Part shown: piece by piece, positions 6,866-50,939 of the stretch
Layout: the number at the start of each line of letters is the position of its first letter
How positions within the stretch are numbered: position 1 is the stretch's first letter
Source of the DNA: Mesoterricola silvestris
GTDB lineage: Bacteria > Acidobacteriota > Holophagae > Holophagales > Holophagaceae
Assembly: GCF_030295405.1 (NCBI RefSeq)
Contig: NZ_AP027080.1
Span: 1,054,001 to 1,118,000, forward strand
Direction: 5' to 3'
DNA: 64,000 nucleotides
Notes under the pieces: model-generated
Databases searched by the model: none
Told to the model about the DNA's origin: nothing
What the model saw: the letters and a program-made list of their open reading frames with translations, nothing else
Position numbers and translations under genes: made by a program

Positions 6866-7488
6866 AAAGCGTCTTCGTGGCGGGGACCGACACCGACGCC
6901 GGCAAGACCGTCGTGGCGGCCGCCCTGGTCCTGGCCCTGGGGGCGCGCTACTGGAAGCCCATCCAGAGCGGCCTGCGGGAGGCCCCGGGGGGCGACACCG
7001 GCGTGGTGGCCCGGCTCACGGGGCGCCGGCCCGGGGACTTCCCGCCCCCCGTCTACGCCTTCATGGCCGCCCTCTCCCCGGACCAGGCCGCCGCCGAGGA
7101 GGGCCTCGGCCTTGATCCCGGGCGCATCGTCCTGCCCGAAGGCCCCCTGGTGGTGGAGGGGGCGGGGGGCCTCCTGGTGCCCCTGGACGGCGGGACCCTC
7201 ATGATCGACCTCGCGGCCCGCCTGGGCCTTCCGGTGGTGCTGGCCGCGCGCACGGGACTGGGCACCCTCAACCACACCCTGCTGTCCCTGGAGGCCCTGC
7301 ACCGGCGGGGGCTGCCGGTGGCGGGGGTGGTCTTCAGCGGGGCGGACCATCCCCGAAACATCGAGACCATCGCCCGGCTTGGGGGGGCCCCCATCCTGGG
7401 CCGCATCCCCTGGCTGGACCCCCTCACCCCCGAAGCCCTGGCCGGGGCCGCGGCGGGGCTCGACCTTTCCTCCCTGGGAGGCCGCTGA
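6862..7488 (+). CDS. bioD: Dethiobiotin synthetase
   Basis: ATP-dependent carboxylase that closes the ureido ring of dethiobiotin from 7,8-diaminononanoate. The 208-residue product carries the P-loop AGTDTDAGKTVV at residues 7-18, YWKPIQSG with the catalytic lysine near 36-43, and VVEGAGGLLVPL near 100-110, which are all BioD signatures. It overlaps bioC upstream, and its stop shares a base with the bioA ATG. It ends at a typical BioD length, so no truncation is apparent. Confidence 0.94.
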   Translation: MKSVFVAGTDTDAGKTVVAAALVLALGARYWKPIQSGLREAPGGDTGVVARLTGRRPGDFPPPVYAFMAALSPDQAAAEEGLGLDPGRIVLPEGPLVVEGAGGLLVPLDGGTLMIDLAARLGLPVVLAARTGLGTLNHTLLSLEALHRRGLPVAGVVFSGADHPRNIETIARLGGAPILGRIPWLDPLTPEALAGAAAGLDLSSLGGR

Positions 7489-8795
7489 TGGACCGCACCA
7501 CGCTCATGGAACGGGACCGCGCCCTGGTGTGGCACCCCTTCACCCAGGCGCACACCGCGCCGCCGCCCATCCCGGTGCGCTCCGCCCGGGGCGCGGTCCT
7601 CACGGATTTCGAGGGGCAGGAGATCCTGGATCTCATCTCCTCCTGGTGGGTGACCCTCCACGGGCACGGCCACCCCGCCATCGCCCGGGCCATCGGCGAG
7701 CAGGCCCTGCGCCTGGAGCAGGTGATCTTCGCGGGCTTCACCCACGAACCGGCGGTGGAGCTCTGCGGGCGGATCACGTCCCTGCTGCCCCCCGGGCTCC
7801 GGCGCTGCTTCTTTTCCGACAACGGCTCCACCGCGGTGGAGGTGGCCCTGAAGATGGCGCTGCAGGCCCGGGGCAACCGCGGGGAGGCCCGGGGCCGCTT
7901 CCTGGCCTTCGATGGCGGGTACCACGGGGACACGGTGGGGGCCATGTCGGTGGGGGTGTCCTCGCGGTTCTTCGAGGCGTGGCGGGCGATGCTGTTCCCC
8001 GTGGACGTGCTGCCCGTGCCGGCCACGTGGGAGGGGGACGGGGACGTGGAGGCCAAGGAGGCCGCGGCCCTGGCCGCCCTGGACCGGCACCTGGACCTGC
8101 ACGGCGCGTCCACGGCCGCGGCCGTCATCGAGCCCCTGGTGCAGGGCGCCAGCGGCATGCGCATGCACCGGCCGGAATTCCTGCGGGGCGCCGTGGAGCG
8201 CCTGAGGGCCCGGGGCATCCTGGTGATCCTGGACGAGGTGATGACGGGCTTCGGGCGGCTGGGGCCGCTCTTCGGGTGCCTGGGGGCGGGGGTGGAGCCG
8301 GATTTCATCTGCCTGTCCAAGGGCCTCACCGGGGGCGCGCTCCCCATGAGCCTGACGGTCACCACCGACGCCGTCCACGACGCCTTCCTGGACGAGGACA
8401 CCGGCAGGGCCTTCCTGCACGGCCACTCCTTCACGGCCAACCCCCTGGGCTGCGCGGCGGCCCTGGCCTCCCTGGACCTGCTGCTGGACCCGGCCTGCGC
8501 CGAGGCCCGGAGCGGGATCGAACACAGGCACCGCACGGACCTGGCGGGGATCGTGGAGGCGAGCCCCAATGCCGCCCGCATGCGGGTGCGGGGCACCCTC
8601 GCGGCCTTCGAGGTCCTGGGGGAGGATCCGCAGCTCAACGCCCGCATGAAGCGGCACTTCCTGCGGCGGGGGCTGCTTCTGCGGCCCCTGGGGAACACGG
8701 TCTACCTGATGCCGCCCTACTGCGTCACCGGGGAGCAACTGGACCGGGCCTACGCGGGCATCGAAGCGGGGCTGGCCACGGGGTTTCCGGAGTGA
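7488..8795 (+). CDS. bioA: Adenosylmethionine-8-amino-7-oxononanoate transaminase
   Basis: PLP aminotransferase of 435 residues that uses SAM to convert KAPA to 7,8-diaminononanoate. Recognisable segments are VWHPFTQ near residue 14, DLISSWWVTLHGHGHP near 48-62, FFSDNGSTAVEVALKMALQ near 110, and the PLP-lysine region CLSKGLTGGALPMSLT near 280. It is the last gene of the biotin operon and starts on the final base of the bioD stop. A small hairpin follows its stop codon. Confidence 0.95.
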   Translation: MDRTTLMERDRALVWHPFTQAHTAPPPIPVRSARGAVLTDFEGQEILDLISSWWVTLHGHGHPAIARAIGEQALRLEQVIFAGFTHEPAVELCGRITSLLPPGLRRCFFSDNGSTAVEVALKMALQARGNRGEARGRFLAFDGGYHGDTVGAMSVGVSSRFFEAWRAMLFPVDVLPVPATWEGDGDVEAKEAAALAALDRHLDLHGASTAAAVIEPLVQGASGMRMHRPEFLRGAVERLRARGILVILDEVMTGFGRLGPLFGCLGAGVEPDFICLSKGLTGGALPMSLTVTTDAVHDAFLDEDTGRAFLHGHSFTANPLGCAAALASLDLLLDPACAEARSGIEHRHRTDLAGIVEASPNAARMRVRGTLAAFEVLGEDPQLNARMKRHFLRRGLLLRPLGNTVYLMPPYCVTGEQLDRAYAGIEAGLATGFPE

Positions 8796-8819
8796 CCTGA
8801 GGCTCACCCACCCCTCAGG
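8796..8819. terminator. Possible bidirectional hairpin between bioA and the convergent gene
   Basis: CCTGAGG at 8796-8802 pairs with CCTCAGG at 8813-8819, a 7-bp stem with a 10-base loop just after the bioA stop. It overlaps the stop of the convergent PEP-synthase-like gene. No run of T follows on either strand, so intrinsic termination is only a suggestion. Confidence 0.35.
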
Positions 8820-11779
8820 CTGCACCCGGGCTTGAGCACCACGCCCCGGTTGCGCCGGCCGTTCAGGGCCACCTCCAGGGGCGCCGCGAAGGCCAGGTGG
8901 CGCAGGTGTTCCGTCTCGTGGGCGGCCTCCTGGGCTTCCAGCCAGGGGAAGTCCAGCAGGTCCTCCCTGCCCTGGGATTCCACCGTGAGGTAGCCCACGC
9001 CGAAGGCCATGAGGTTCTGGAAGAAGTGCGATCCCTGGGAGGGGTCCACGTGCATGTCCCCCATGTCGGTCTCCACGATGCACCGGGCGCCGGCGATCTG
9101 GGACCAGGCCACGGGGATGCCCAGCCAGGGGTCGCCGCTGCCCCACCGGCCAGGGCCCACCAGGAGGTAGGGCCGGCCCTTGAGGCGCCGGTTCAGGTCG
9201 CCCACCTCGGCCGCGATCTCCCGGGTGCGCGCGCGGCTGAAGGTTCCGGGGCGCACGTACACCAGGTCCTGGATGCCCTCCAGGAAGCCGTTGCCCATGG
9301 CCATGCGCGAGGTGCAGATGGCGTCCCCGGGGCGGAGGGCGGCCATGGGGATGTCCTGGGCGTCGGTGCCCAGGACCATGGGCCGGATCTGCAGGAAGTC
9401 GAAGGCGTGGGGTTCGCCCGGGCTCCGGGAGAGGGTGACGGCGAATTCCATCTCCACGGGGCAGGAATTGGCGGCGGCGCCGGCCTTGAGCAGCAGCGTG
9501 AGCACCTCGCCCAGGGGGAAGACCCCGCCCTTGAACACGCCGGCCATGGTCACCAGGGGCACGCCGGGGCGGGAGCAGCCGTCGTAGATGGCGTCGTTGT
9601 CCGGGGAGTAGACGCCCCCCACGGGGTAGAGGGTGCCGTGCTCCCGGGCCGCGGCCAGGTCCAGGGTGGCCAGGTTGAGCATGCCGCCCTGGCCGGATCC
9701 GTGGCTTTCCAGGTCCAGGGCGAGGAACTCCCGCTGGGCGTTCTGCAGGTAGTCCCGGGGCGAGAACCACTGGAGGGGCTTCGCGGGCTGGGCGGGGCAG
9801 AAGCGCGCGCAGCGCCCGCCGTCCACCACCGTCTTGCCCAGGCCCAGGGCCACGGAGCCCACGCCCTCCTCCGGCTTCATGCCGGGCATGGGGTAGAAGT
9901 TCAGGGAGCGGCCCACCCCGGCGAAATCCGGGTACATGTAGCGCCCGTGGCGGCACCCCGCCATCTGCTGGATCACCACCGCCATCTTCTCCTCCTCCAC
10001 GCGGTTGGGCGTGGACTGGAGGTAGGCCTTGGCCTCGGAGTGGAAGGTGGAGGCGTAGACGCGCTTCACCGCGTCGCCCAGCCGGGCCAGGCGCAGCTCG
10101 GGGTCCTCCTCGTTGTTGGGGATCATGTACGTCTCGTAGATCCCCGCGAAGGGCTGGTAGGACGCGTCCTCCAGCAGGCTGGAGGAGCGCACCGCGAGGG
10201 GGTAGCGGATCCAGTCCAGGAAGGTCCACAGGGCGTCCACCGCCTCCCGGGGCAGGTCCGCCGCCAGGAAGGCCCGGGTGATGGCGTCGTTGTCCTGCTC
10301 CTGCTGCGCGAAGGCCCGCAGCCCGGAACCGTCCATGAACTGGTCGAAGACGCTGGTGGCCAGGACCAGGGTGGGGGGCACGGCGATGCGGATGCCCGGG
10401 AAGCGGTTCTCCAGGTGGTACGACGTGATCAGGGAATTCACGAAGGCCAGGCCCCGGCCCTTGCCGCCCAGGGAGCCCGTGCCCAGGCGCACGAAGCGGC
10501 TGCTCCCCTCGAAGCCCGTGGGGGAGAACTCCGCCACGACCCCCGCGCCCACCCGGGCCCGGTGCGCATGGAGGGCCTGGAGGATCCCCCGGCGCAGCTC
10601 CTCCCCGGAGGGGGTGCGGGCGATGATCCGCGCCAGGGTCCCGCTCAGCTCGAATTCCGTGCGCACCCGGAGCCATTTGCTGAAGTCGCCCCGGGCGGCA
10701 TGGAATTCCAGGCTCTCCAGGGGCACCGCCTGCACCGACCATTCCAGGCTGCGGAGGTCGTCGGCCTTGGAGACGACGGTCCCCAGGTTGTCCCGGAAGA
10801 TGAATTCGCCGAAGCCCAGGTAGTCCTGCATGAAGGTGCGCAGCTCCTGGCGGAGGTCCGGGGAGCGCTTGTCCACGAAGGTCACCGCCGAGCCGGGCCC
10901 GGGGCTCCAGAATTCGGAGGTGGACTGCACGAGGATGGGGATGTCCCGGGAGCCCTCCTCCACGATCCGCGCGAAGGCCGGGCCCGCGGCGGGGTCCATG
11001 CGGCCCTCCCGGGGGAAGGCGATGTCCAGGATCACGCCCACCAGGTCCTCCCGGAAGGTGCGGTAGAGCTCCAGGGCCTGCTCGAAGGTGTGGGCCAGGA
11101 GGATCTTGGGCCGGGCGCGGCGCCGGATGATGCGCTGGGAGCGGTTCACCCCCTCGGCCATGAGGGTCAGGGTCTGTTTCATGACCTCGGTGTACAGCTC
11201 GGGCAGGTTGGCGGAATAGAAGGGGACGCTGTCCTCCACCACCAGGATGCACTTCACCCCGGCGAGCCGCGCGTCGTGCCAGGCGTTGAGGTGGTCCTCC
11301 ACCAGCTTGATCATGGCCAGGAACAGGCGCACGTCACCCAGCCACACGAAGACGTCGTGGATGCCCTTGAGGTCCGTGAGGGGCTGCAGCTGCGCCAGTT
11401 CCCGCAGGCTGCTGGCCAGGAGGATCACCGGCAGCCCCGGGGCCCTCTCCTGCACCCGTTCCCCGAATTCCCGGACGTTCATCTCCCCCACCCGGGGCAT
11501 GGAGATCACCAGGTCGAAGTCCATGCGGGTGATGAGGTCCAGGGCCTCCAGGGCCGTGGACACCCGCTGGATATGCGGGGAGTACTGCAGGTTGAGCTCC
11601 ATGAACTCGTTGAGCAGCATTTCCGAGAGCCGTCCGTCCTCGATGAACGTGTAGCTGTCGTAGAGGCTCGTCACCAGGAGCAGGTTGTTGACCCGCTTCG
11701 GGATGAGGGAGTCGTAGAGCGTCTCGGTCTGTTCCGGGATGCCGAGGAGGTCGTCCAGGATCCGGTCACGCATGGTCAT
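8804..11779 (-). CDS. Receiver-PEP synthase-like ATP-grasp protein (PPDK_N domain)
   Basis: Cytoplasmic protein of about 991 residues. Residues 1-150 look like a degenerate receiver (no acceptor aspartate, no lysine). Residues 165-330 look like a full receiver: acidic pair in ILVVEDS, acceptor in VILDIAFP, LVQSTSE, and lysine in VTFVDKRS. A PEP-synthase/PPDK ATP-grasp domain follows, with GSLGGKGRGLAF, RSSSLLEDASYQPFAG, LGLGKTVV and a closing FLQIRPM. The C-terminus carries GPGRWGSGDPWLGIP instead of the phosphohistidine and PEP-binding domains, so classical PEP synthesis looks impossible. I chose ATG 11779; the 5' extension to 12061 would run into the divergent gene. It is divergent from the GAF protein, 79 bp away, which suggests a shared regulatory unit. 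Confidence 0.82.
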   Translation of the reverse strand: MTMRDRILDDLLGIPEQTETLYDSLIPKRVNNLLLVTSLYDSYTFIEDGRLSEMLLNEFMELNLQYSPHIQRVSTALEALDLITRMDFDLVISMPRVGEMNVREFGERVQERAPGLPVILLASSLRELAQLQPLTDLKGIHDVFVWLGDVRLFLAMIKLVEDHLNAWHDARLAGVKCILVVEDSVPFYSANLPELYTEVMKQTLTLMAEGVNRSQRIIRRRARPKILLAHTFEQALELYRTFREDLVGVILDIAFPREGRMDPAAGPAFARIVEEGSRDIPILVQSTSEFWSPGPGSAVTFVDKRSPDLRQELRTFMQDYLGFGEFIFRDNLGTVVSKADDLRSLEWSVQAVPLESLEFHAARGDFSKWLRVRTEFELSGTLARIIARTPSGEELRRGILQALHAHRARVGAGVVAEFSPTGFEGSSRFVRLGTGSLGGKGRGLAFVNSLITSYHLENRFPGIRIAVPPTLVLATSVFDQFMDGSGLRAFAQQEQDNDAITRAFLAADLPREAVDALWTFLDWIRYPLAVRSSSLLEDASYQPFAGIYETYMIPNNEEDPELRLARLGDAVKRVYASTFHSEAKAYLQSTPNRVEEEKMAVVIQQMAGCRHGRYMYPDFAGVGRSLNFYPMPGMKPEEGVGSVALGLGKTVVDGGRCARFCPAQPAKPLQWFSPRDYLQNAQREFLALDLESHGSGQGGMLNLATLDLAAAREHGTLYPVGGVYSPDNDAIYDGCSRPGVPLVTMAGVFKGGVFPLGEVLTLLLKAGAAANSCPVEMEFAVTLSRSPGEPHAFDFLQIRPMVLGTDAQDIPMAALRPGDAICTSRMAMGNGFLEGIQDLVYVRPGTFSRARTREIAAEVGDLNRRLKGRPYLLVGPGRWGSGDPWLGIPVAWSQIAGARCIVETDMGDMHVDPSQGSHFFQNLMAFGVGYLTVESQGREDLLDFPWLEAQEAAHETEHLRHLAFAAPLEVALNGRRNRGVVLKPGCSLRGG

Positions 11780-11858
11780 TTCCGGGAAGGTGACCGCATC
11801 ATAGCATCGAAGTTCGGGCAGAATACTTGCTGGCGACGTCCATTCCGGAGGTTCCGGC

Positions 11859-12896
11859 ATGATCGAGTCCACCCACGACGGCAATCCGCTCCTCACCTGG
11901 GGGGGCGCGCCCCACTTCCGGTTCCGGGACCTGCTCCACCGGCTCTTCTCCATGGCCAACCAGGGCTTCCTGCGCCTGGAGTTCCTCCAGATGGCCACGG
12001 GCTCGATCCTGGAGTTCCTGGCCTGCGATGTGCTGGAAGTGTGCCTGGAGGAGGGCGGCAAACGGTACCGCTGCCGGGCGGAGGCGGGGGAGGGGGGCCT
12101 GCGCTTCTATTCCGGCCTCGATGCGGGGGACCCTGCCCAGCTCCCGGACCAGATCCTGGCCTCGGTGCTGCGGGGGCAGTTCCTGGCCGCCTCCCCCTTC
12201 TCCACCCGGGCCGGGAGCTTCTGGACCAGCGATTCCTCCCGCCCGGTGCTTCTACGGGAGAACGGCCGCCACGACGCCCAGGCGCATTCCGTGGTCATCG
12301 GGGGGGACTACCGTTCCCTGGCCTTCGTGCCCGTGCCCGTGGACGAGCGCATCCGGGGCGTGCTGCACCTGGGGAGCCGCAAGGCGGACCACTTCACTCG
12401 GAACGATGTGCAATTCTTCGAGGGCGTGGGGGAGACCCTGGGCGTGGCGGTGGCCTTCCAGGCCGCCCAGTGGGCCCTGCGGGAACGGGTCAAGGAGCTG
12501 GACTGCCTGTACGGCATCGCCCAGGTTTCCCAGCGGGACGGCGGCACCCTGGACGACCAGATGCAGGCCATCGTGGAGCTCCTGCCACCCGCCTGGCAGT
12601 ACCCCGAGCTCACCTGCGCGCGCATCCTCCTCAATGGCAGGTGCTTCGACACCCCGGGCTTCCAGGAGACCCCCTGGCGCCAGGAGGCGGGCCTGGTGGT
12701 GGCGGGAAAGCTCCGCGGCGCCGTGCGGGTGCATTACCTGCGGGAGATGCCCGCCTTCGACGAGGGCCCCTTCCTGCAGGAGGAGCGCAACCTCATCGAG
12801 GAGGTGGCCCACCAGGTGGGCCTGCTGGTGAACCGCGGCGAGGACGCCCTGGCCAAGGCCAAGCTGTTCCACATGCTGGAACAGCGGCGGGAGTGA
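11859..12896 (+). CDS. Tandem GAF-like domain protein
   Basis: Soluble protein of 345 residues with no signal peptide. The first half (about 20-200) ends in the GAF-like signature SLAFVPVPVDERIRGVLHLGS followed by DVQFFEGVGETLGVAVA. The second half (about 215-335) repeats the pattern, with LLPPAWQYPELTCARILLNG and EERNLIEEVAHQVGLLVN. The same second-domain pattern sits upstream of PAS or kinase modules in many sensor proteins, but here the chain ends without an output domain. It is divergent from the receiver-ATP-grasp gene and may act with it. Ligand unknown. Confidence 0.75.
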   Translation: MIESTHDGNPLLTWGGAPHFRFRDLLHRLFSMANQGFLRLEFLQMATGSILEFLACDVLEVCLEEGGKRYRCRAEAGEGGLRFYSGLDAGDPAQLPDQILASVLRGQFLAASPFSTRAGSFWTSDSSRPVLLRENGRHDAQAHSVVIGGDYRSLAFVPVPVDERIRGVLHLGSRKADHFTRNDVQFFEGVGETLGVAVAFQAAQWALRERVKELDCLYGIAQVSQRDGGTLDDQMQAIVELLPPAWQYPELTCARILLNGRCFDTPGFQETPWRQEAGLVVAGKLRGAVRVHYLREMPAFDEGPFLQEERNLIEEVAHQVGLLVNRGEDALAKAKLFHMLEQRRE

Positions 12897-24638: not shown

Positions 24639-25478
24639 ATGGACACGATCAACCTGGCGATTCCCAAGGGCCGCATGGCCGAGGGGGTCCTTCGCCTCAT
24701 GGAGGACGCCGGCTTCAAGGTGCTGGCCAACGGCCGCAATTACCGGCCCGCGTGCGCCGATCCCCGCTTCCAGCTCAAGCTGCTCAAGCCCCAGGACATC
24801 GTCCGGATGGTGGAGCTGGGCCGGCACGACCTGGCCTTCGCGGGCCACGACTGGGTGGTGGAACTGGGCGCCGAGGTGGACGATATCCTGGACACGGGCC
24901 TGGACAAGGTGCGCCTGGTGGCCGCCGCGCCCCGCACCGGCCTCTCCACCCTGCGGAGCCGGCGCATCGTGGTGGCCAGCGAGTACGAGCGCATCACCCG
25001 CACCTGGCTGGACAGGGAGGGCTTCGACTACCTCTTCGTGCGCAGCCACGGCGCCACGGAGGTGTTCCCCCCCGAGGACGCCGACATGATCGTGGACAAC
25101 ACCGCCACGGGCAGGACCCTGGTGGAGAACGACCTGGAGATCGTGGACACCCTCCTGACCTCCTCCACCCGGCTCATCGCCAATCCCCGCCTGGGCAAGC
25201 GGGCCGAAGTGGACGAGCTCCTCCTGCTCCTCAATTCCGTCCTGGACGCCCGCAAGCGGGTGATGCTGGAGATGAACGTGGCCGCCTCAAACCTGGACGC
25301 CGTCCTGGGGATCCTGCCCTGCATGCGCATGCCCACCGTGATGCCCCTGGCGGGGGAGGGCGGCTTCGCGGTGAAGTCCGCCGTGCCCGCCAAGGAGGTG
25401 CGCCGCCTCATCCCCCTCCTCAAGGCCGCCGGCGCCACCGATATCCTGGAATTCTCCTTCAGCAAGGTGGTGTCATGA
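24639..25478 (+). CDS. hisG: ATP phosphoribosyltransferase (long form)
   Basis: First enzyme of histidine synthesis, joining ATP and PRPP. The product is 279 residues, the long HisG form, with catalytic domains followed by the C-terminal regulatory domain. N-terminal LAIPKGRMAEGVLRLMEDAG, the AGHDWVVE block and the PRPP-site DNTATGRTLVEND near residue 150 are visible; a C-terminal MPTVMPL and VPAKEVRRLIPLLKAAGA belong to the allosteric domain, so feedback by histidine is expected and HisZ is not needed. ATG follows GGAGAG. The stop overlaps hisC. It is controlled by the upstream attenuator. Confidence 0.95.
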   Translation: MDTINLAIPKGRMAEGVLRLMEDAGFKVLANGRNYRPACADPRFQLKLLKPQDIVRMVELGRHDLAFAGHDWVVELGAEVDDILDTGLDKVRLVAAAPRTGLSTLRSRRIVVASEYERITRTWLDREGFDYLFVRSHGATEVFPPEDADMIVDNTATGRTLVENDLEIVDTLLTSSTRLIANPRLGKRAEVDELLLLLNSVLDARKRVMLEMNVAASNLDAVLGILPCMRMPTVMPLAGEGGFAVKSAVPAKEVRRLIPLLKAAGATDILEFSFSKVVS

Positions 25479-26446
25479 GCGCCGGCGAACGCTACCCCGA
25501 GGGCCGCGGGTCCTTCATCCGCATGGACTTCAACGAGGGGCCCGCGCCCGGGCCGGATCTCCTTTCGGTGGACCTGGGCGACTGCCTTTCCCGCTACCCC
25601 GAGTACGGCGCCCTCAAGGAATGCGCCGCCCGGGCCTACGGGGTGGAACCGGAATGCCTGGTGCCCGTCAACGGGGCCGATGAGGGCATCCTGCTCCTCC
25701 AGAGGATCCTGGCCGGGGGCGGAATGGTGCTGCCGGTGCCCGCCTTCTCCATGTACCGCGTCTACGCGGACCAGCTCGGGGTCCCCATCACCGAGGTTCC
25801 CATGGACGCGGACTGGGACCTGGACGTGGAGGGCGTGCTGGCCGCGGAGGGCTCCATGGTGGCCCTCACCAGCCCCAACAACCCCACGGGGCGCCGCATC
25901 TCCGAGGAGGCCCTCCTGCGGATCCTGGCCCAGGGCCGGCCCGTGCTCCTGGACGAGACCTACGGTCCCTACTGCGGGCAGGACTTCGCCGGGCTCCTGG
26001 GGGCCTGGCCCAACCTGGTGATCGTGAGGACGCTGAGCAAGGCGTACGGCGTCCCGGGCCTTCGCTGCGGGTTCATCCTCGCCTCCCGGGAACTGGCGGA
26101 AAGGCTGGACGCGGTGCGCTCCCCCTTCAACGTCAACGCCGTCGCCGCGGCCCTGGGGGTCCGCCTCCTGGAGCGGGACACCCGGTTCGGGGACCGCGTC
26201 TCCGCCGCCGTGGCCGCGCGGCGCGCCCTGCAGGACCGGCTTGAGGGCGCGGGGTACCGCACCATCCCGTCGGACGCCCATTTCTTCCTGGCGGAGCTCG
26301 GCCCGGGCGCCGCGGCGAGGCTCCGGGAGGCCAACATCCTCGTGCGGGACATGGGCCCGTCCATGGCCGGCTGGTGCCGGGTGAGCGTGGCCTCCACCGC
26401 GGACGCCGCCTGTTTCGAGACCGCATTCCTGGGAGGCCGCCCATGA
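25475..26446 (+). CDS. hisC: Histidinol-phosphate aminotransferase
   Basis: PLP aminotransferase that converts imidazole-acetol phosphate to histidinol phosphate. The product is 323 residues, a little shorter than the usual 340-360. Key blocks: MDFNEGPAPGP near residue 16, SRYPEYGALKE near 38, TSPNNPTGRRIS near 130, LLDETYGPYCG and the PLP-lysine segment TLSKAYGVPGLRCG near 190. The ATG overlaps the hisG stop and the TGA overlaps hisB. A shortened HisC-like region recurs in the gene at 45797. Confidence 0.93.
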   Translation: MSAGERYPEGRGSFIRMDFNEGPAPGPDLLSVDLGDCLSRYPEYGALKECAARAYGVEPECLVPVNGADEGILLLQRILAGGGMVLPVPAFSMYRVYADQLGVPITEVPMDADWDLDVEGVLAAEGSMVALTSPNNPTGRRISEEALLRILAQGRPVLLDETYGPYCGQDFAGLLGAWPNLVIVRTLSKAYGVPGLRCGFILASRELAERLDAVRSPFNVNAVAAALGVRLLERDTRFGDRVSAAVAARRALQDRLEGAGYRTIPSDAHFFLAELGPGAAARLREANILVRDMGPSMAGWCRVSVASTADAACFETAFLGGRP

Positions 26447-27003
26447 CCCGCTTCGAACGCATCACCAAGGAGACCCGGGTCGTCCTGACCCTGGGGTCCG
26501 GGGGCGCCGTTACCACGTCCCTGCCCATGCTCACCCACTTCCTGGACCAGCTCAACCTCTACGGGGGCCTGGGCCTCGCCCTGGAGGCCGAGGACCTCAT
26601 GCCCCTGGGCGACGGCCACCACCTGGCCGAGGACGTGGCCATCGCCCTGGGCCGGGCCCTGGACGCGCACCTGGGGGGCCGGGAGGGCCGGGCCCGCTAC
26701 GGCCAGCGCCTGCTGCCCATGGACGAGACCCTGGCCACCGTGGCCCTGGACATCGGCGGCCGGCCCTACCCCGTGGTGGACATCCCGTTCCCGGCCCCGG
26801 TCCTGGGCGGCCTGGCCACGGAGAACATCATCCACTTCTTCCGCACCCTGGCCCTGGAGGGCCGCTTCACCCTGCACCTCAAGGTCACCGGGGAGAACGC
26901 CCACCACATGGCCGAGGCCGCCTTCAAGGGCGTGGGGTTCGCCCTGCGGGAGGCCATGGGCGAAGGCGACGGCCTGCGCTCCACCAAGGGGGTGCTGCGG
27001 TGA
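26443..27003 (+). CDS. hisB: Imidazoleglycerol-phosphate dehydratase
   Basis: Monofunctional HisB of 186 residues (no N-terminal phosphatase part). It has ERITKETRV at the start, MLTHFLDQLNLYGGLGL near 28, the manganese-ligand segments DGHHLAEDVAIALG near 60 and GENAHHMAEAAFKGVG near 150, and STKGVL at the end, all diagnostic. Since this HisB cannot dephosphorylate histidinol phosphate, a separate phosphatase must exist; none is in this operon, and the HAD protein at 45.8 kb is a candidate. It overlaps hisC upstream and hisH downstream by four bases each. Confidence 0.95.
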   Translation: MTRFERITKETRVVLTLGSGGAVTTSLPMLTHFLDQLNLYGGLGLALEAEDLMPLGDGHHLAEDVAIALGRALDAHLGGREGRARYGQRLLPMDETLATVALDIGGRPYPVVDIPFPAPVLGGLATENIIHFFRTLALEGRFTLHLKVTGENAHHMAEAAFKGVGFALREAMGEGDGLRSTKGVLR

Positions 27004-27584
27004 TCGGCATCGTCGACTACGGCTGCGGGAACCTCCGGAGCCTGGAGAACGCCCTGGAATTCCTGGGCCTGGAATCCCGGCGCGTCTCGGCCCGGGAGGA
27101 CGTCCTGGCCATGGACCGGCTCATCCTGCCGGGTGTGGGGAACTTCGGCCACGCCGGGGCCGAACTGGCCCGGCGGGGCCTGGGCGCCTCCCTGCGGGAA
27201 CGGGCCGGCCTGGGCCGGCCCCTGCTGGGCATCTGCCTGGGCATGCAGCTCCTGTTCGAAGGCTCGGAGGAGGCGCCGGAGACCGAGGGCCTGGGGCTCC
27301 TGCCGGGGCGCAGCGAGCTCTTCGCGGACCCGGCCCTCAAGGTGCCCCACATGGGCTGGAGCGCCGTGGAATTCGGGGAGCTCTCCGGCGCGGCCTACTT
27401 CGTGCACTCCTATTTCCTGCCGGGCCTCTCCGGCGACCGCCCCGCCCAGGTGGCCACGGCCCGGTACGGCCGCCCCTTCCTGGCGGGCTTCCGCAGCGGG
27501 AGCCTCGCCGGCTTCCAGTTCCACCCCGAAAAGAGCGGCGCCTACGGCCTGAACCTGCTCAAGGAGGCGCTCGCATGGTCATGA
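27000..27584 (+). CDS. hisH: Imidazole glycerol phosphate synthase, glutaminase subunit
   Basis: Class I glutamine amidotransferase of 194 residues that feeds ammonia to HisF. The triad is complete: nucleophile Cys in LLGICLGMQLLFEGSEE near residue 80 and the His-Glu pair in FQFHPEKSGAYG near 175. The oxyanion strand LPGVGNFGHA and KVPHMGWSAV are also present. GTG start overlaps the hisB stop; the end overlaps hisF. It is the reference for the degenerate paralogue at 47056. Confidence 0.95.
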   Translation: MIGIVDYGCGNLRSLENALEFLGLESRRVSAREDVLAMDRLILPGVGNFGHAGAELARRGLGASLRERAGLGRPLLGICLGMQLLFEGSEEAPETEGLGLLPGRSELFADPALKVPHMGWSAVEFGELSGAAYFVHSYFLPGLSGDRPAQVATARYGRPFLAGFRSGSLAGFQFHPEKSGAYGLNLLKEALAWS

Positions 27585-28330
27585 AGCGGATCATTCCCTG
27601 CCTGGACGTGAAGAACGGCCGGGTCGTCAAGGGCGTCCAGTTCCAGAACCTCAGGGACAGCGGCGACCCCGTGGAACTGGCGGCGCGCTACGACGCGGAG
27701 GGCGCCGACGAACTGGTGTTCCTGGACATCACGGCGGGCATCGAGAAGCGCGACACCGCGGTGAGGATGGTGGAGGCGGTGGCGCGGGAGGTGTTCATCC
27801 CCTTCACCGTGGGGGGCGGCATCCGCACCGTGGCCGACGCCGAGGCCCTGCTCATGGCGGGCTGCGACAAGGTGGCCGTGAATTCCGCCGCCGTGCGCCG
27901 CCCGGAGCTCATCACCGAACTGGCCACGCGCTTCGGCAGCCAGTGCGTGGTCCTGGCCGTGGACGTGCGGCGCCCGGCCTACGGGATCCTGGTGGCCGTG
28001 GACGCGGGGAGGACCCTCACCCAGCTCACCCTGGGGGCGTGGCTGGCCGAGGCCCAGGACCGGGGCGCCGGCGAGGTCCTGCTCACCAGCATGGACCGGG
28101 ACGGCACCGGATCGGGCTACGACCTGGACGTGCTGCGCCGGGCCTCCCGGGGGCTGCGGGTCCCGCTCATCGCCAGCGGCGGCTTCGGGGAGGCCGCCCA
28201 CGCGGTGGAGGCCTTCGGGGCCGGCGCCGACGCGGTGCTGGCGGCGGGGATCTTCCACACCGGCGGCCTCACGGTGCGCCGGCTCAAGGAACAGCTCGCC
28301 CGGGAGGGCGTGGAGGTGCGCCCATGCTGA
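27575..28330 (+). CDS. hisF: Imidazole glycerol phosphate synthase, cyclase subunit
   Basis: TIM-barrel cyclase of 251 residues, which makes imidazole glycerol phosphate and AICAR from PRFAR and ammonia. It has [15 protein letters not shown] with the catalytic Asp near residue 11, the GGGIRTV phosphate loop near 81, [10 protein letters not shown] with the second catalytic Asp near 130, and [13 protein letters not shown] near 172. Two starts are possible: ATG 27575, or ATG 27581, which overlaps the hisH stop as ATGA and is more like the other junctions. It ends four bases into the hisA fusion gene. Confidence 0.95.
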
Positions 28331-29592
28331 TTCCCAGCATCGATCTCATGGACGGCAAGGCCGTGCAACTGGTGGGGGGCCGCACCAAGGTCCTGGAGGT
28401 GGAGGACGTCCTGGGGCTGGCCCGGCGCTGGCGGGTGTACGGCGACCTGGCCGTCATCGATCTGGACGCCGCCCTGGGCCAGGGCGACAACCTGGGCCTG
28501 GTGAAGGAGCTCTGCGCCGTGGCCCGGTGCCGGGTGGGGGGCGGCGTTCGCACCCCGGAGCGCGCCCACGAGCTGCTCCGGGCGGGCGCGGCCTCCATCA
28601 TCCTGGGCACCGCCGCCTCCGAGGAGCTCCTGAAGAAGCTCCCCCGGGAGCGAACCCTGGTGGCCGTGGACCAGCGGGCCGGAAAGCTCCAGTCCCGGGG
28701 CTGGAAGGAGGACGAGGCCGAGGCCCCCCTGGACCGCCTCCGGCGCCTGGACCCCTTCTGCGGGGGCTTCCTCATGACCGTCGTGGACAAGGAGGGCCGG
28801 CTGGAGGGCGTGGACTGGGAGGCCGCCAAGGCCGCCCGGGCCGCCACGAAGCTCCCCATCGTCTACGCCGGCGGCGTCACCACGGTGGAGGACGTGGCCG
28901 CCCTTGACCGCCTGGGGGTGGACGCCCAGGTGGGCATGGCCCTGTACAAGGGCCTCCTGGATCCCGCCGGGGCCTTCCTGGCCTGCCTGGACTGGGACAA
29001 GCAGGGCGGGCTCATCCCCGCGGCGGTCATGGACGAGGCCGGAAGGCTGCGCATGGTGGCCTACGAGAATCCCCAGTGCCTCCGGGAGGCCCTGGAGCGG
29101 GGCAGGGGCGTCTACTGGTCCCGCTCCCGGGGCGGGCGCTGGGAGAAGGGGGAACAGAGCGGCCACGGGCAGGAGCTCCTGCGGGTGGAGGCGGACTGCG
29201 ACCGGGACACCCTGCGCTTCGTGGTGCGCCAGGAGGGTCCCACCTGCCACACCGGAAGCGGCACCTGCTTCGGCCGGGCCGAATTCGCCCTGGCCGACCT
29301 GGAGGCCACCCTGGGCTCCCGCCTGGAGGAGGCCGCCCCGGGCAGCTACACCGCCCGCCTCTACCGGGAGGAGGGCCTCCTGGCCGCCAAGCTCCAGGAG
29401 GAGGCCGCCGAGATGGCCGAGGCCGCCACGCCCGATGAACTGGTGTGGGAGGGGGCCGATCTGCTCTACTTCCTCATGGTCCGGCTCGCCAAGGGCGGGG
29501 TTCGCATGGAGCAGGTGCTGCGCGAACTGGAACGCCGGGCCACCACCGACACCCGCAAGCCCGGCAACGCCAAAGGAGCGCCCCGATGCTGA
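28324..29592 (+). CDS. hisA: Trifunctional HisA-HisI-HisE fusion
   Basis: A 422-residue protein that seems to fuse three enzymes of consecutive steps. Residues 1-220 are HisA (ProFAR isomerase): [39 protein letters not shown] and a late YAGGVTTVEDVAAL. Residues about 225-320 are HisI (PR-AMP cyclohydrolase): VYWSRSRGGRWEKGEQSGH and the zinc cysteines in DCDRDTL and TCHTGSGTCF. Residues about 325-415 are HisE (PR-ATP pyrophosphatase): KLQEEAAEMAEA and VWEGADLLYFLMV. No stop or frameshift separates them. HisIE fusions are common; joining HisA in front is unusual. Order of domains does not match order of steps (E, I, A). Confidence 0.9.
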   Translation: MLIPSIDLMDGKAVQLVGGRTKVLEVEDVLGLARRWRVYGDLAVIDLDAALGQGDNLGLVKELCAVARCRVGGGVRTPERAHELLRAGAASIILGTAASEELLKKLPRERTLVAVDQRAGKLQSRGWKEDEAEAPLDRLRRLDPFCGGFLMTVVDKEGRLEGVDWEAAKAARAATKLPIVYAGGVTTVEDVAALDRLGVDAQVGMALYKGLLDPAGAFLACLDWDKQGGLIPAAVMDEAGRLRMVAYENPQCLREALERGRGVYWSRSRGGRWEKGEQSGHGQELLRVEADCDRDTLRFVVRQEGPTCHTGSGTCFGRAEFALADLEATLGSRLEEAAPGSYTARLYREEGLLAAKLQEEAAEMAEAATPDELVWEGADLLYFLMVRLAKGGVRMEQVLRELERRATTDTRKPGNAKGAPRC

Positions 29593-30830
29593 AGACCCTC
29601 TCCTTCGCCAAGGCCATGGACCAGGCCGGCACCGTGTTCCCGCCCGTGCCTCCCGAGGTGGGAACCATCCTGGACGATATCCGCCGGCGCGGCAACGAGG
29701 CCGTGTTCGACTGGGCCCGCAAGCTGGACGGCTTCAAGGGCGGCCCCTTCGAAGTGGATCCCCACAAGGTCCGGGAGGCCCCCGGCAAGCTCCACCCCGA
29801 ACTGCGCGGCCACCTGGAGGAGGCCATCCGCCGGGTGGGGATCTTCGCCCGGGCCCAGAAGGAGAGCTTCCGGGACTTCAGCACCGAGGTGGACGGCATG
29901 GAGCTGGGCCAGCGGGTGCTGCCGGTGGGCCGCGCCGCGTGCTACGCCCCCGGGGGCCGCTACCCGCTGCCCAGTTCCGTGATCATGGGCGTGGTCCCCG
30001 CGCGGGTGGCGGGGGTCAAGGAGGTCCTCGTCCTCAGCCCCCGCCTCCACCCCGTGACCCTGGCCGCCGCGGCCCTGGCCGGCGCCGACCGGGTCTTCGA
30101 CCTGGGCGGGGTGCACGGCATGGCCGCCGTGGCCTGGGGCCTGGCGGGGGTCCCCCGGGCCGACCTGGTGGTGGGCCCCGGCAACCGCTTCGTCACCGGC
30201 GCCAAGCGCCTCCTCTACGGCGACGTGGGCATCGACTTCCCCGCGGGCCCCAGCGAACTCCTGGTCATCGCCTCCCAGGGGGCCCGTCCCGCCTGGATCG
30301 CCGCCGACCTCCTGGCCCAGGCCGAGCACGACCCCGACGCCCGCCCCCTGCTGGCCGTCTTCGACGCCGCCCTCATTCCCGCGGTGAACGGCGAGCTCAA
30401 GGGCCAGCTGGCCGCCCTGCCCCCGGATTCCCCCGCCCGGGACAGCCTGCGCAACGGCTTCGCCGTGCTCCTGGCCAACGACGCCGAGGCCGTGGCCCTG
30501 GCCGACGCCCTGGCCCCCGAGCACCTGGAACTCCAGGGGGCCCGGGCCGAGGCCCTGGAGGGGCGCTTCAGCAGCTACGGCAGCCTCTTCGTGGGGGAGG
30601 ACGCCGCCGAGGTCTTCGGGGACTACGGCAGCGGCACCAACCACATCCTCCCCACCTCGGGCGCCGCCCGTTTCACCGGCGGCGTCTCCGTGGCCACCTT
30701 CCTGAAACTCCTCACCTGGCAGCGCACGCTTCCCGGGGGCCGCCAGCCCTTGGCCCGTCAGGCCGCCGCCCTGGCCCGGGCCGAGGGCCTGACGGGGCAC
30801 GCCGCCTCGGCCCTCAAGCGAAGCGAGTGA
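29586..30830 (+). CDS. hisD: Histidinol dehydrogenase
   Basis: Zinc enzyme of 414 residues catalysing the last two oxidations to histidine. Signatures: CYAPGGRYPLPSSVIMG near residue 119, VVGPGNRFVTGAKRLLYG near 196, GIDFPAGPSELLVIA, LLAQAEHDPDAR near 248, and GSGTNHILPTSGAARFTGGVS near 345, which together hold the zinc ligands and catalytic His-Glu. The ATG overlaps the end of the hisA fusion. It closes the operon; no clear intrinsic terminator is visible in the 145 bp that follow. Confidence 0.95.
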   Translation: MLKTLSFAKAMDQAGTVFPPVPPEVGTILDDIRRRGNEAVFDWARKLDGFKGGPFEVDPHKVREAPGKLHPELRGHLEEAIRRVGIFARAQKESFRDFSTEVDGMELGQRVLPVGRAACYAPGGRYPLPSSVIMGVVPARVAGVKEVLVLSPRLHPVTLAAAALAGADRVFDLGGVHGMAAVAWGLAGVPRADLVVGPGNRFVTGAKRLLYGDVGIDFPAGPSELLVIASQGARPAWIAADLLAQAEHDPDARPLLAVFDAALIPAVNGELKGQLAALPPDSPARDSLRNGFAVLLANDAEAVALADALAPEHLELQGARAEALEGRFSSYGSLFVGEDAAEVFGDYGSGTNHILPTSGAARFTGGVSVATFLKLLTWQRTLPGGRQPLARQAAALARAEGLTGHAASALKRSE

Positions 30831-44808: not shown

Positions 44809-45729
44809 ATGCACCGGAATCGCCACGCCCAGACGCTTCGCCAGCCCGCCACCTTGTCGGGCCGGGGGCTCCACGGCGATCTTCCCTGCACCGTGGTGCT
44901 GCGGCCTGCCGAGCGGGCTTCCGGCATCACCTTCCTGCACACCCCCTCCGGCGTGGAGATCCCCGCCCGGGCCGAGTTCGTGGGGGACTGCAGCCTGGCC
45001 ACCTCCCTGACCCGGGACGGCATCCGCCTCCAGACCGTGGAGCACCTGCTTTCCGCCCTGGCGGGCCTGGGCATCGACCACGTCACCGTCGAGGTGGACG
45101 GCGAAGAGCTCCCCATCCTGGACGGCAGCGCCGAGCCCTGGGTGCGCCTCATCCTGGAAGCCGGCATCCGCCCCATGGCCATCTGGCCCCGGGCCCTGCG
45201 GATCCTCAAGCCCGTGGAAGTGCGCATGGGCGACAAGTGGATGCGCGTATCCCCCTGGAACGGGCTGCGCCTGGCCTACACCATCGTCTACGACAACCCC
45301 TACATCGGGCGCCAGAGCCGGGAGCTGACCCTCACCGCCGAGAAGTACGTGCGCGAACTGGGCCTGGCCCGCACCTTCTGCCTGGAGAGCGACATCACCT
45401 TCATGCGTTCCCGGGGGCTCGCCAAGGGCGGCAGCCTGGACAACGCGGTGGTGTTCGGGGCCGAGGGCCCCCTCAACGAATCCCTGCGCTTCGAGGACGA
45501 AGCCGTGCGCCACAAGATGATGGACCTGGTGGGCGACCTGGTCCTCCTGGGCGCGCCCCTGGAAGGCTTCGTGGAGGCCCACTGCGCCGGCCACGCCGTG
45601 CACGTGGCGCTGGCCAAGGCCATCCTCGCCGATCCCTCCGCCTGGACCTGGGCGGATTCCGAGCCGGAAACCCGGCCCCGGAAGCTTTTTGCCCAGGGGC
45701 TCCCCGCCGCCCACCCCATCCCCGCCTGA
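44809..45729 (+). CDS. lpxC: UDP-3-O-acyl-N-acetylglucosamine deacetylase
   Basis: Zinc deacetylase for the committed step of lipid A synthesis, so the cell makes LPS. The 306-residue protein has LSGRGLHGD near residue 17, zinc ligands in QTVEHLLSALAGLG near 80 and in RHKMMDLVGDL near 235, ELPILDGSAEPWV near 103, and the general acid in AHCAGHAVH near 260. The ATG follows GAGGA. Length is normal. Confidence 0.94.
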   Translation: MHRNRHAQTLRQPATLSGRGLHGDLPCTVVLRPAERASGITFLHTPSGVEIPARAEFVGDCSLATSLTRDGIRLQTVEHLLSALAGLGIDHVTVEVDGEELPILDGSAEPWVRLILEAGIRPMAIWPRALRILKPVEVRMGDKWMRVSPWNGLRLAYTIVYDNPYIGRQSRELTLTAEKYVRELGLARTFCLESDITFMRSRGLAKGGSLDNAVVFGAEGPLNESLRFEDEAVRHKMMDLVGDLVLLGAPLEGFVEAHCAGHAVHVALAKAILADPSAWTWADSEPETRPRKLFAQGLPAAHPIPA

Positions 45730-45796: not shown

Positions 45797-47059
45797 GTGG
45801 AGGTTCGGGAAGCGGCGGCGCTGGGCGCGCCCCGGGGCGGGGCCCTGGCGGGCGTCTCCCTGGATGCCATGCTCGAGGCCCTCCTGCGGGAAAGGACCCC
45901 CCAGCGGGTGTGGGTGGCCGAATCCCTCTGCGCCGCCTGGGGGGACCGGATCCGGGCCGCGGGCGCCGAATGCCGCTCCCTCCGGCTGGAAGGCCGGGAC
46001 GTGCTGAACACCCTCATGGACGCCTCCTCCCAGTGCGGTCCCCAGGAACAGATATGGCTGAACCTGGATCGGAGTCCGGCCCTGGACCACATGGATCTGC
46101 TGAGCCTGGACGCTTTCCTGGCCTACGCCGCCACCCGGCCCCACCCCCCCCTGGCTGTCTTTCTGCACGATGACGCCCCGGGCCTGCCGCGCACCCTGCG
46201 CCTGGCGGTGGACCGGCACGGCATCGCCCTGCTGCTGCGGGAAGGCCCCTGGGGCGCCTGCGCCCTGGGCAAGCCGGAGGTGCTGGCGGCCCTGGCGGGC
46301 GCGGCGGGGGGTTCCCTCCCCGGGACCTTCGCCACCGCCACCCGGGGCCGCCAGCTCCTGGCCCTGGACGTGGACGGCGTGCTCATCGATCCGGGCCGTT
46401 CCTTTTCCGAGGCGGTGGCGGCCGCCCTGGCGGAGCTGGCCCCGAACCTCCCCTGGGACGACGACCACTTCGCCGCCTTCAAGCGGGTGGGGGGCTTCAA
46501 CAACGATTTCCGCCTCACCGCCGGGGCCCTGGCCCTGGCCGAGATCGGGGGACTGGACGGGCTCCGGCACGCCACCGGCAAGGGCTTCCCCCACCTGGAA
46601 CCCCGCATCCGGGAACTGGAGCCCCGGTGCCGGGAGGTGGTGCAGAAGCACTACGCCCGCACCCGGCGCATGGAGCGCCCCATGGTCACCCGGGAGGACC
46701 TGGACGCCTTCCCCGGCGATCTGGCCATCTTCACCGGGCGTCCCCCGGACGAGCTGACCCTGGCCTTCCAGGTGCTGGGTTTCCGCATCCCCGCCGTGGC
46801 CGACAGCGCTCCCCACCTGCGCAAGCCCCGGGCCGAGGGGCTCCTCCAGCTGGCCGACGCCTTCCGGTCCACCCGGGTGGTCTTCGTGGGGGACACCTGC
46901 GACGACGCCACGGCCCTGCGGGAGGCCCGGGCCCTGTGCCCCGGCGTGGAGTGGGTGTTCGCCGCCGTGGGCCCCGACCGCCAGTGGATCGCCGGGGAGG
47001 GCGACCTCCAGGCCCCCCGCCTCAAGGACCTCCTCCCCGCCCTGGGCCCGGCCCGGTGA
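45797..47059 (+). CDS. Degenerate HisC-like region fused to a TIGR01548-like HAD phosphatase
   Basis: A 420-residue protein. Residues about 20-185 look like a shortened histidinol-phosphate aminotransferase without the PLP lysine domain: EQIWLNLDRSPALDHMDLLS sits where HisC has its NPNNPTG block, and LLLREGPWGACALGKPEVL resembles the HisC end. Residues 188-418 form a complete HAD hydrolase: LALDVDGVLIDPGRSF (nucleophile Asp), VGGFNNDFRLTAG typical of the TIGR01548 group, IFTGRPPDE, KPR and VFVGDTCDDATAL. GTG 45797 follows AGGAGG. It overlaps the HisH-like gene. I infer a possible histidinol-phosphatase role, because the HisB in this window lacks one. Confidence 0.72.
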   Translation: MEVREAAALGAPRGGALAGVSLDAMLEALLRERTPQRVWVAESLCAAWGDRIRAAGAECRSLRLEGRDVLNTLMDASSQCGPQEQIWLNLDRSPALDHMDLLSLDAFLAYAATRPHPPLAVFLHDDAPGLPRTLRLAVDRHGIALLLREGPWGACALGKPEVLAALAGAAGGSLPGTFATATRGRQLLALDVDGVLIDPGRSFSEAVAAALAELAPNLPWDDDHFAAFKRVGGFNNDFRLTAGALALAEIGGLDGLRHATGKGFPHLEPRIRELEPRCREVVQKHYARTRRMERPMVTREDLDAFPGDLAIFTGRPPDELTLAFQVLGFRIPAVADSAPHLRKPRAEGLLQLADAFRSTRVVFVGDTCDDATALREARALCPGVEWVFAAVGPDRQWIAGEGDLQAPRLKDLLPALGPAR

Positions 47060-47682
47060 TCACCCTCCTGGAGCCCGGCGCCGGAACCCTGCACACCCTG
47101 GAGGGGGCCCTGGACCACCTGGGCTTCCGCCACCTGCGGGCCCCCGGCCCCGGGGCCGCGGCCCCCGCGGGCCCCCTGGTGCTCCTGGGTTCCGGCCCCT
47201 TCGACGCGGCCTGCGCCGCCCTGAAGGCCAGCGGCTGGTGGTACGAACTGCCCCAGATGGCCGCCGCGGGCCGGCCCGTCCTGGGCATCGGCCTGGGCCT
47301 CCACCTCCTGGCCGAAGGCAGCGAGGAATGCCCCCGGGGCGCCGGCCTGGGCCTCATCCCCGGCATCGTCCGGAGCCTGGGCCCCGGCGTCAAGCTCCCC
47401 CACGAGGGCTGGACGGTCATCACCCGGCACCGGTCCCACCCCGCCATCCCCGAAGCCCGGGGGGCCTGGATGTACTTCAAGCACACCCACGCCCTGGAAC
47501 CCGGCACCCTCACCTTCCACACCGCCGTCCACGGCCGCCCCTTCTCGGTGCTGGAGATGCGCGGCCAGACCCTGGGCCTCCAGGCCCACCCGGAAAAGTC
47601 CGGGTCCTTCGGCCTGGCCTTCCTGGAAAAGCTCCTGGCCGGCCTGGGCGAATACCCCGCCGCCCCCCCGGGGTCGAACTGA
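47056..47682 (+). CDS. HisH-like protein lacking the nucleophilic cysteine
   Basis: A 208-residue homologue of HisH. Its LVLLGSGPFDAACAAL and VLGIGLGLHLLAEGSEE line up with the true HisH LPGVGNFGHAG and LLGICLGMQLLFEGSEE, but the catalytic Cys is replaced by Gly. The His-Glu pair survives in LQAHPEKSGSFGLAFL, and LGLIPG and VKLPHEGWTVI are kept. It should therefore be unable to hydrolyse glutamine, yet the fold is conserved. GTG start overlaps the upstream stop and its TGA overlaps the HisF-like ATG, a tightly coupled cassette. Confidence 0.82.
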   Translation: MITLLEPGAGTLHTLEGALDHLGFRHLRAPGPGAAAPAGPLVLLGSGPFDAACAALKASGWWYELPQMAAAGRPVLGIGLGLHLLAEGSEECPRGAGLGLIPGIVRSLGPGVKLPHEGWTVITRHRSHPAIPEARGAWMYFKHTHALEPGTLTFHTAVHGRPFSVLEMRGQTLGLQAHPEKSGSFGLAFLEKLLAGLGEYPAAPPGSN

Positions 47683-48293
47683 TGGACGCCCGGCGCGTGG
47701 TTCCCACGCTCCTCGTCCAGGAAGGCCGCGTGGTGGACCCCGCCGACGCCGCCGACCTGGGCGCCCCCGCGGACTGGGCCCGGCGCCTGGAACTGGAGGG
47801 CGCCGACGGCATCCTCTTCGTGGAACGGGGCCGGCGCCTCCGCCGGGGCTGGATGCTGGACGTGGCCCGGACCCTCTTCATCCCCTTCGCCCTGGAGGCG
47901 TCCTTCGCCGACGCCGGCGAGATCCGGGAGGCCCTGGAGGACGGGGCCGACCGGGTGGTGCTGGGGGACCTGGAAGCCCTGGAGGCGGCGCGCTTCGGCC
48001 GCGCCCGCGTCACCGCCCTCCTGAAGGCCGGCGGATCCACCACCCTGGAGGACCTGCGGACCCTGGACGGGGCAGGGGAGATCCTCCTGGACGGCGAGGG
48101 GCCGGGGATGGCCGGCCTTTGCGCCGGCGCGGCCCACCTGCCGACCCCCATCCTCCTGCGCTGCGCCGACCCCGCGCGGGCCGCGGAGGCCCTGGCCAGC
48201 GGGGCCGACGGCATCGCCTACCCCGCCGGGCTCATGCCGCCCGGGGCCTTCAAGGACCTTCTGGGCACCGCGGGAATCCCCCTCCGGCGGTAG
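47682..48293 (+). CDS. Shortened HisF-like protein lacking catalytic residues
   Basis: A 203-residue homologue of HisF (true HisF here 251). RRVVPTLLVQEGRVVDP aligns with [16 protein letters not shown], so the first catalytic Asp has become Leu. ARRLELEGADGILFVERG matches [18 protein letters not shown], and the end ASGADGIAYPAGLMPPGAF matches [17 protein letters not shown]. The central part holding the second catalytic Asp and [11 protein letters not shown] is missing or unrecognisable. It probably keeps a TIM-barrel-like binding surface and could pair with the HisH-like protein. Function unknown. Confidence 0.8.
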   Translation: MDARRVVPTLLVQEGRVVDPADAADLGAPADWARRLELEGADGILFVERGRRLRRGWMLDVARTLFIPFALEASFADAGEIREALEDGADRVVLGDLEALEAARFGRARVTALLKAGGSTTLEDLRTLDGAGEILLDGEGPGMAGLCAGAAHLPTPILLRCADPARAAEALASGADGIAYPAGLMPPGAFKDLLGTAGIPLRR

Positions 48294-50528: not shown

Positions 50529-50939
50529 CTAGAAGATCGGGTCGCCCGGCTTGCGGCGCCAGGCCTCGGCGCGGTTCTTCCCGCCCTCGTTCTTGGTCTT
50601 GGCGTCCTTGGCGGCGTTGGCGAGGCTCTCCAGGAGGCTGCCGCCCACACGGGTGGCCGCTGCCTTGGTCATGCCGGGGGTGTGGACGCGCTCGGGGCCC
50701 TTGGGGGTCTCGACGCTCTCGGTGGCCGCTTCGGCCTGTTCCCGGAGACGCTTCTCGTACCAGAGCTTGCGCTTGGGATCCAGGACGCGCACCTGCTTGA
50801 CGCCGCCCCCCTTGCGCGTGGCCGTGGGCTTGGGTTTCAACTCCCTCTTATCCTCCCGATGATCGGATTCAGGATCGGAGGCTTCTTCCAGGATCTTGGC
50901 GAGGTCCGCCAGGCTTCCAAGGCCGCGCTGCTTGCTCAT
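50529..50939 (-). CDS. Hypothetical charged protein (136 aa)
   Basis: An unrecognised soluble, highly charged and probably partly disordered protein. The start MSKQRGLGSLADLAKILEEA is helical; the middle is rich in Lys/Arg/Glu with RVLDPKRKLWYEKRLREQ, and the end is basic. No membrane segment, signal or domain is seen. It is convergent with the large exported protein across 58 bp containing a GGCCCGAAGGGCC hairpin that may end transcription. Codon use fits its neighbours. Confidence 0.55.
   Translation of the reverse strand: MSKQRGLGSLADLAKILEEASDPESDHREDKRELKPKPTATRKGGGVKQVRVLDPKRKLWYEKRLREQAEAATESVETPKGPERVHTPGMTKAAATRVGGSLLESLANAAKDAKTKNEGGKNRAEAWRRKPGDPIF

Follow-up and report, generated by a model that had tools for sequence, protein, structure and literature searches.

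A remnant of the native histidine operon in Mesoterricola silvestris encodes a probable phosphatase and a HisH–HisF pair lacking catalytic residues

We analysed a 64,000-nucleotide stretch of Mesoterricola silvestris contig NZ_AP027080.1 (positions 1,054,001–1,118,000, hereafter the window) and found that a three-gene cassette at 45797–48293 is the remainder of the family's own his operon, still at its ancestral site. Its HisH and HisF homologues (HisH' and HisF') have lost catalytic residues, yet neutral evolution was rejected for every part of the cassette. We propose, with a probability of roughly 0.6, that the cassette is a survivor of the native operon in which a HAD domain is kept as a phosphatase and HisH'–HisF' as a maintained non-catalytic pair with a structural or regulatory role.

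Results

The cassette lies on the forward strand behind lpxC (44809–45729, + strand), the gene that immediately precedes the native his site and serves as its syntenic marker. It comprises C'-HAD (45797–47059, 420 aa), whose GTG start is preceded by GGAGGAGG, HisH' (47056–47682, 208 aa), and HisF' (47682–48293, 203 aa). C'-HAD and HisH' share a 4-nt GTGA overlap, and HisH' and HisF' meet at TGATG. Cassettes with identical losses were found in five species of the window's genus (G000, G002, G003, G004, and G005), in which every reading frame was open and no indel shifted the frame. HAD and HisH' overlapped by 4 nt in all five species; HisH' and HisF' overlapped in two, were 9 nt apart in two, and were separated by 175 nt in G003. 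Another member of the genus, G001, carries C'-HAD without HisH' and HisF'; within the genus, these two proteins were either both present or both absent. A scan of named genomes with C'-HAD gave matches only in two Holophagaceae MAGs, UBA692 and UBA706. The sharing by five species, the open frames, and the invariant 4-nt overlap confirmed that the cassette is real and beyond chance. The original prediction of three translationally coupled genes with the losses described below was borne out by the open reading frames, profile searches, and residue alignments; the proposed survey of related genomes found the cassette conserved in the genus, and frameshifts in close relatives, which had been named as a sign of decay, were not seen in the five species. 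The cassette-bearing group consists of soil and sediment bacteria.

The origin of the cassette was traced by searching 100 related genomes with HisH' and then examining the loci as DNA. In most of the family's other genera, the relatives of HisH' (47–60% identity) were ordinary Cys-bearing HisH proteins, and the operon read hisD-[HisC-HAD fusion]-hisB-hisH-hisA-hisF-hisIE-hisG with a full-length HisF. This native operon stood directly behind spor-ispD-lpxC in most of the relatives' loci with a long enough contig, and in the five genus members spor-ispD-lpxC was followed at the same position by the cassette. In the HisH tree, the HisH' clade (support 100/100) was nested within the native HisH clade, and the HisH proteins of a second operon type, type B (window, G001, G004, G005, G019, and G031), formed a separate clade (99/98) beside other Acidobacteriota. 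A tree of HisF alone, with its long branches, gave no placement of HisF'. Because of the synteny and of the nesting of HisH' among native HisH proteins, we concluded that the cassette is what remains of the native operon. It had been taken for an ancient partial duplication of the operon at 25–28 kb of the window; the synteny and the HisH tree rejected this origin, as the operon at 25–31 kb belongs to another lineage.

Besides the cassette, G003 has a second his operon, complete and of the native type, which lies on another contig and not beside lpxC (L041, G003:C87:12000-30000, 4607–12448); a type-B operon was not found in this genome. Foreign contamination was considered as the source of the second operon, and the contamination of the genome is 8%, but the flanking DNA was closest to its own genus (79% vs 73%), and the operon is thus not clearly foreign. 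The native operon may therefore also have been duplicated within the genus.

The working set of histidine genes in the window is the type-B operon (24639–30830, + strand; hisG-hisC-hisB-hisH-hisF-hisA/hisIE-hisD), which lies 20 kb from the cassette and differs from the native operon in gene order and in its long HisG. No phosphatase gene was present in this operon (25–31 kb). At 28327–29592, it encodes HisA fused to HisI-HisE in one protein of 421 aa. In G004, assembled as one contig, the type-B hisC has been lost (L034, 14830–14847; G004:C1, about 2.265 Mb), and the nearest HisC-like protein, at 2.686 Mb, shows 31% identity. Several genomes encode a further HisH-HisF-like pair (L038, L040, L047, and L049) that is 35–40% identical to the working proteins, possibly of the sugar-amidating WbuY/WbuZ kind.

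The N-terminal part of C'-HAD, C' (45797–46336, + strand), is what is left of a HisC large domain, the one that binds PLP, and is fused to the HAD domain. Native HisC-HAD fusions of relatives are single proteins of approximately 600 aa with an intact lysine segment, RTFSKALASAAWRLG. Alignment with these fusions indicated that C' lacks the N-terminal arm, the small domain, and the catalytic lysine segment (FSKALASA in relatives), the last as predicted, so that it has neither the PLP lysine nor both domains of a HisC. In the C' model, residues 1–173 aligned with the HisC structure 3ffh in its large domain (Z 15.9), in agreement with a HisC fold, which is partly imposed here because the AF2 input alignment included native HisC sequences.

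The HAD-IA phosphatase domain (46337–47059, + strand) retains motifs I–IV intact (DVDGVLID, TGR, K, and GDTCDD), as had been noticed from the sequence. It matched PF00702 (E 8e-9) and also TIGR01548 (51.4 bits, E 1e-13), the latter below the family cut-off of 140.2, and HAD phosphatases headed the fold list of its model (Z 21.1 to 6iah). Its location had been read as the place of HisB, which was incorrect: in relatives, hisB comes after a gene in which HisC and HAD are fused.

HAD was present in 57 of the 61 family genomes, including all type-B genomes searched (G000, G001, G004, G005, G019, and G031). It is associated with histidine genes in relatives, as a fusion to HisC between hisD and hisB, and similar HADs of other Acidobacteriota families adjoin hisC inside his operons. 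A bare HAD lies near the hisD end of the type-B operon in g7, and g2 also keeps a bare HAD. Since the product of HisC is histidinol phosphate, the fusion places HAD on this compound; together with the intact motifs, it makes HAD a probable histidinol-phosphate phosphatase, as the original prediction had suggested. Exclusivity did not stand: HAD was also kept in four g2 genomes (G006, G016, G024, and G029; L096–L099) and in G011 (L100) without detectable hisD and hisF, and it is thus not confined to genomes that make histidine. Because of the g2 genomes, histidinol-phosphate dephosphorylation is unlikely to be its sole function. Moreover, the window's genome encodes one SuhB/HisN-like protein of the IMPase family (169 bits against the HisN model, cut-off 275), which might perform the histidinol-phosphate step. 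A PHP-type histidinol-phosphate phosphatase was rejected, as the sole other PHP protein, leaving aside a 1232-aa open frame taken as a polymerase, best matched a nucleoside bisphosphate phosphatase or RNase AM and not HisJ. In G016, the gene next after the stand-alone HAD is homologous to a small gene of the window (50529–50939), and homologues of this small gene also occur downstream of the native his operon in some relatives.

These data bear on a different reading, in which HAD acts on another metabolite, the SuhB-like protein acts on histidinol phosphate, and the cassette is unlinked from histidine. The g2 genomes and the IMPase-family match would suit it, but the fusion of HAD to HisC or its location beside hisC and hisB in complete operons, also in other families, and its retention in every type-B genome searched render it somewhat unlikely.

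HisH' (47056–47682, + strand) is a homologue of class-I glutamine amidotransferases and was assigned to HisH, as expected, by its match to TIGR01855 (101 bits, E 7e-29), just under the cut-off of 105.4. The position of the nucleophile Cys84 is occupied by Gly in four species and Asn in one, leaving the catalytic triad incomplete with His178 and Glu180 kept; the predicted change of Cys to Gly beside a retained His-Glu was thus seen in the alignments. The oxyanion strand PGVG is replaced by LGSG or MGTG. Of 80 sites invariant in native HisH, 54 were kept in all five species and 11 were lost in all five, the latter including N12, P49, C84, Q88, and V140 (T. maritima numbers). Judging from the alignments, the losses fall mostly on catalytic positions of the glutaminase machinery, and HisH' is predicted to be incapable of hydrolysing glutamine by the known mechanism. 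The Trp and Lys docking residues, W123 and K181, are retained along with H178 and E180.

HisF' (47682–48293, + strand) matched TIGR00735 only over residues 3–96 (34 bits, E 1.5e-8; cut-off 294.55). Its AF2 model (pLDDT 90.2, pTM 0.89) nevertheless contained all eight strands of a (βα)8 barrel, and the best PDB matches were HisF chains (6rtz, Z 24.6, 202 of 203 residues, rmsd 2.3), consistent with the expected HisF fold. The first catalytic Asp is replaced by Leu (Asp11), as predicted, and Asp130 is replaced by Lys. The catalytic and phosphate-binding loops are erased or deleted: D11, K19, G80–G82, D130, G177, S201, G202–203, and A223–224, all invariant in the working HisF proteins compared, were lost in all five species. 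Most of the β-α loops have become shorter or have changed in sequence, and they vary from species to species among the five. HisF' is accordingly predicted to be unable to bind its phosphorylated substrate.

The bottom face of HisF', which faces HisH in the working enzyme, was better preserved. All five species kept 22 of the 44 native-HisF invariant sites located in the loops and strand halves of the bottom, compared with 5 of the 45 at the top (Fisher p 7e-5). Conservation of the bottom loops was not clearly higher than that of the helices (p 0.07), and the bottom-face signal thus partly reflects loss of the top face. R5, D98, K/R99, E167, D219, and R249 were kept in all five species, and E46 was Gly in four of the five. 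In T. maritima, the E167A mutation of HisF raises the Kd for HisH tenfold, i.e. weakens binding, and R249 of HisF forms with W123 of HisH a hinge at the interface (PMC9032424). HisF D98 moves to HisH N12 upon activation, making a contact of the active complex (PMC8115485); the loss of N12 from HisH' counts against docking, as does the Gly at E46 of HisF'.

The retained docking residues (D98, E167, and R249 of HisF'; W123 and K181 of HisH') and the short distance to the working operon would also fit a decoy role, in which HisH' would dimerise with the type-B HisF, or HisF' with the type-B HisH, and modulate the activity of the working imidazole-glycerol-phosphate (IGP) synthase. We regard this as unlikely, because the joint retention or loss of HisH' and HisF' suits pairing with each other better.

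Selection on the cassette was estimated with codon models in G000, G004, and G005, the closest species, all of which follow the loss of the Cys. The ω value of HisH' was 0.078, compared with 0.103 for working HisH; that of HisF' was 0.152, five times higher than the 0.029 of working HisF; and those of C' and HAD were 0.150 and 0.058, respectively. Neutrality (ω = 1) was rejected for each part, with 2ΔlnL of 151 for HisH', 87 for HisF', 91 for C', and 158 for HAD, and pairwise substitution counts agreed with the codon-model estimates. All four parts are under purifying selection, and plain decay of the cassette was rejected. The suggestion that the pseudo-enzymes are retained for something other than their original catalysis gained support, since the catalytic residues are gone and yet neutrality was rejected.

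It has to be weighed whether HAD alone is functional, with C', HisH', and HisF' as slowly decaying passengers translated through coupling. The deletion of the other operon genes, the complete loss of HisH' and HisF' from G001, and the raised ω of HisF' would agree with such passengers. However, neutrality was rejected gene by gene after the catalytic loss, the ω of HisH' does not exceed that of working HisH, the frames stay open with in-frame indels in five species, and derived residues such as Q88H are common to all five; the passenger reading is consequently improbable.

The five relics have certain derived residues in common, namely His in place of Gln88 and Tyr143 of HisH', as well as Cys147 and Cys161 of HisF'; these may form metal or disulphide sites. 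That the pair gained new chemistry, with such invariant residues (the histidines near His178 among them) binding a metal or building another active site, is very doubtful, because the β-α loops of HisF', the usual location of a barrel active site, are mostly shortened or rewritten and variable among the five species.

Discussion

We return to the reading of the cassette as a selected survivor of the native operon. The type-B operon would have taken over histidine synthesis without bringing a histidinol-phosphate phosphatase, so that selection continued to act on the HAD portion of the former HisC-HAD fusion, probably as a phosphatase. HisC would have been reduced to a structural PLP-fold domain on HAD, and the redundant hisD, hisB, hisA, hisIE, and hisG would have been deleted, with HisH and HisF kept as a dead pair. 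HisH' and HisF' may still pair as a heterodimer of the HisH-HisF type whose role lies in binding; most likely, it would scaffold or regulate either the C'-HAD translated along with it or the working histidine enzymes. The docking of HisH' with HisF', the binding partner, and the substrate of HAD are what we infer from the sequences.

A complex working by binding is suggested by the folds, the docking face of HisF', the joint presence or loss, and the purifying selection. The conserved coupling of HisH' to C'-HAD makes the phosphatase the first candidate partner and the working IGP synthase the second. As G001, g7, and g2 keep HAD without the pair, the pair could only modulate HAD and not enable it. 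We see an even chance that HisH'–HisF' is a pseudo-imidazole-glycerol-phosphate synthase, i.e. a dead pair selected throughout the genus as a binding complex, with HisH' translationally coupled to the phosphatase.

Histidinol-phosphate phosphatase is among the steps most commonly missing from GapMind reconstructions, being of low confidence in 42 of 148 (28%) prototrophs (PMC7311316). In Acidobacteriota, the HAD of the HisC fusion offers a concrete candidate for this missing enzyme. The literature searched contained no paper on a HisH without its Cys or on a pair of dead HisH and HisF, and TIGR01548 appeared in a single unrelated paper. Nor did that literature describe a doubly dead HisH-HisF pair with a working ancestor state in sister genera.

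Among known systems, the cassette HAD resembles the TIGR01548 HAD-IA hydrolases in its motifs, length, and E-value (1e-13), but its score of 51 bits falls short of the cut-off of 140, and it is fused to a HisC remnant. The native HisC-HAD operon (G018, G046, G053, and others) shares with the cassette the site behind lpxC, the order of the surviving genes, and 47–60% identity in HisH; unlike the cassette, it is complete and has intact active sites. HisH-HisF IGP synthase (1GPW and 6RTZ) is matched by the barrel of HisF', the profile of HisH', the neighbouring of the two genes, the docking residues on the bottom face of HisF, and W123, H178, E180, and K181 of HisH, whereas the cassette has no nucleophilic Cys, PGVG strand, D11/D130, or phosphate-binding loops. 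As a well-studied allosteric pair, this synthase provides the structural vocabulary for testing a dead one. Selection is already known to preserve enzymes that have lost their activity, and pseudo-enzymes are mostly attributed to old duplications. The mammalian ammonia-dependent carbamoyl-phosphate synthetase I keeps a dead glutaminase domain for structure or allostery; like HisH', this domain has the fold of class-I amidotransferases but no nucleophilic Cys, and it is retained by selection. Its partner synthase, however, is active, whereas HisF' has lost its catalytic residues as well. As the working ancestor state is found at the same site in sister genera, the stepwise route from an operon to a dead, selected pair can be read in this family.
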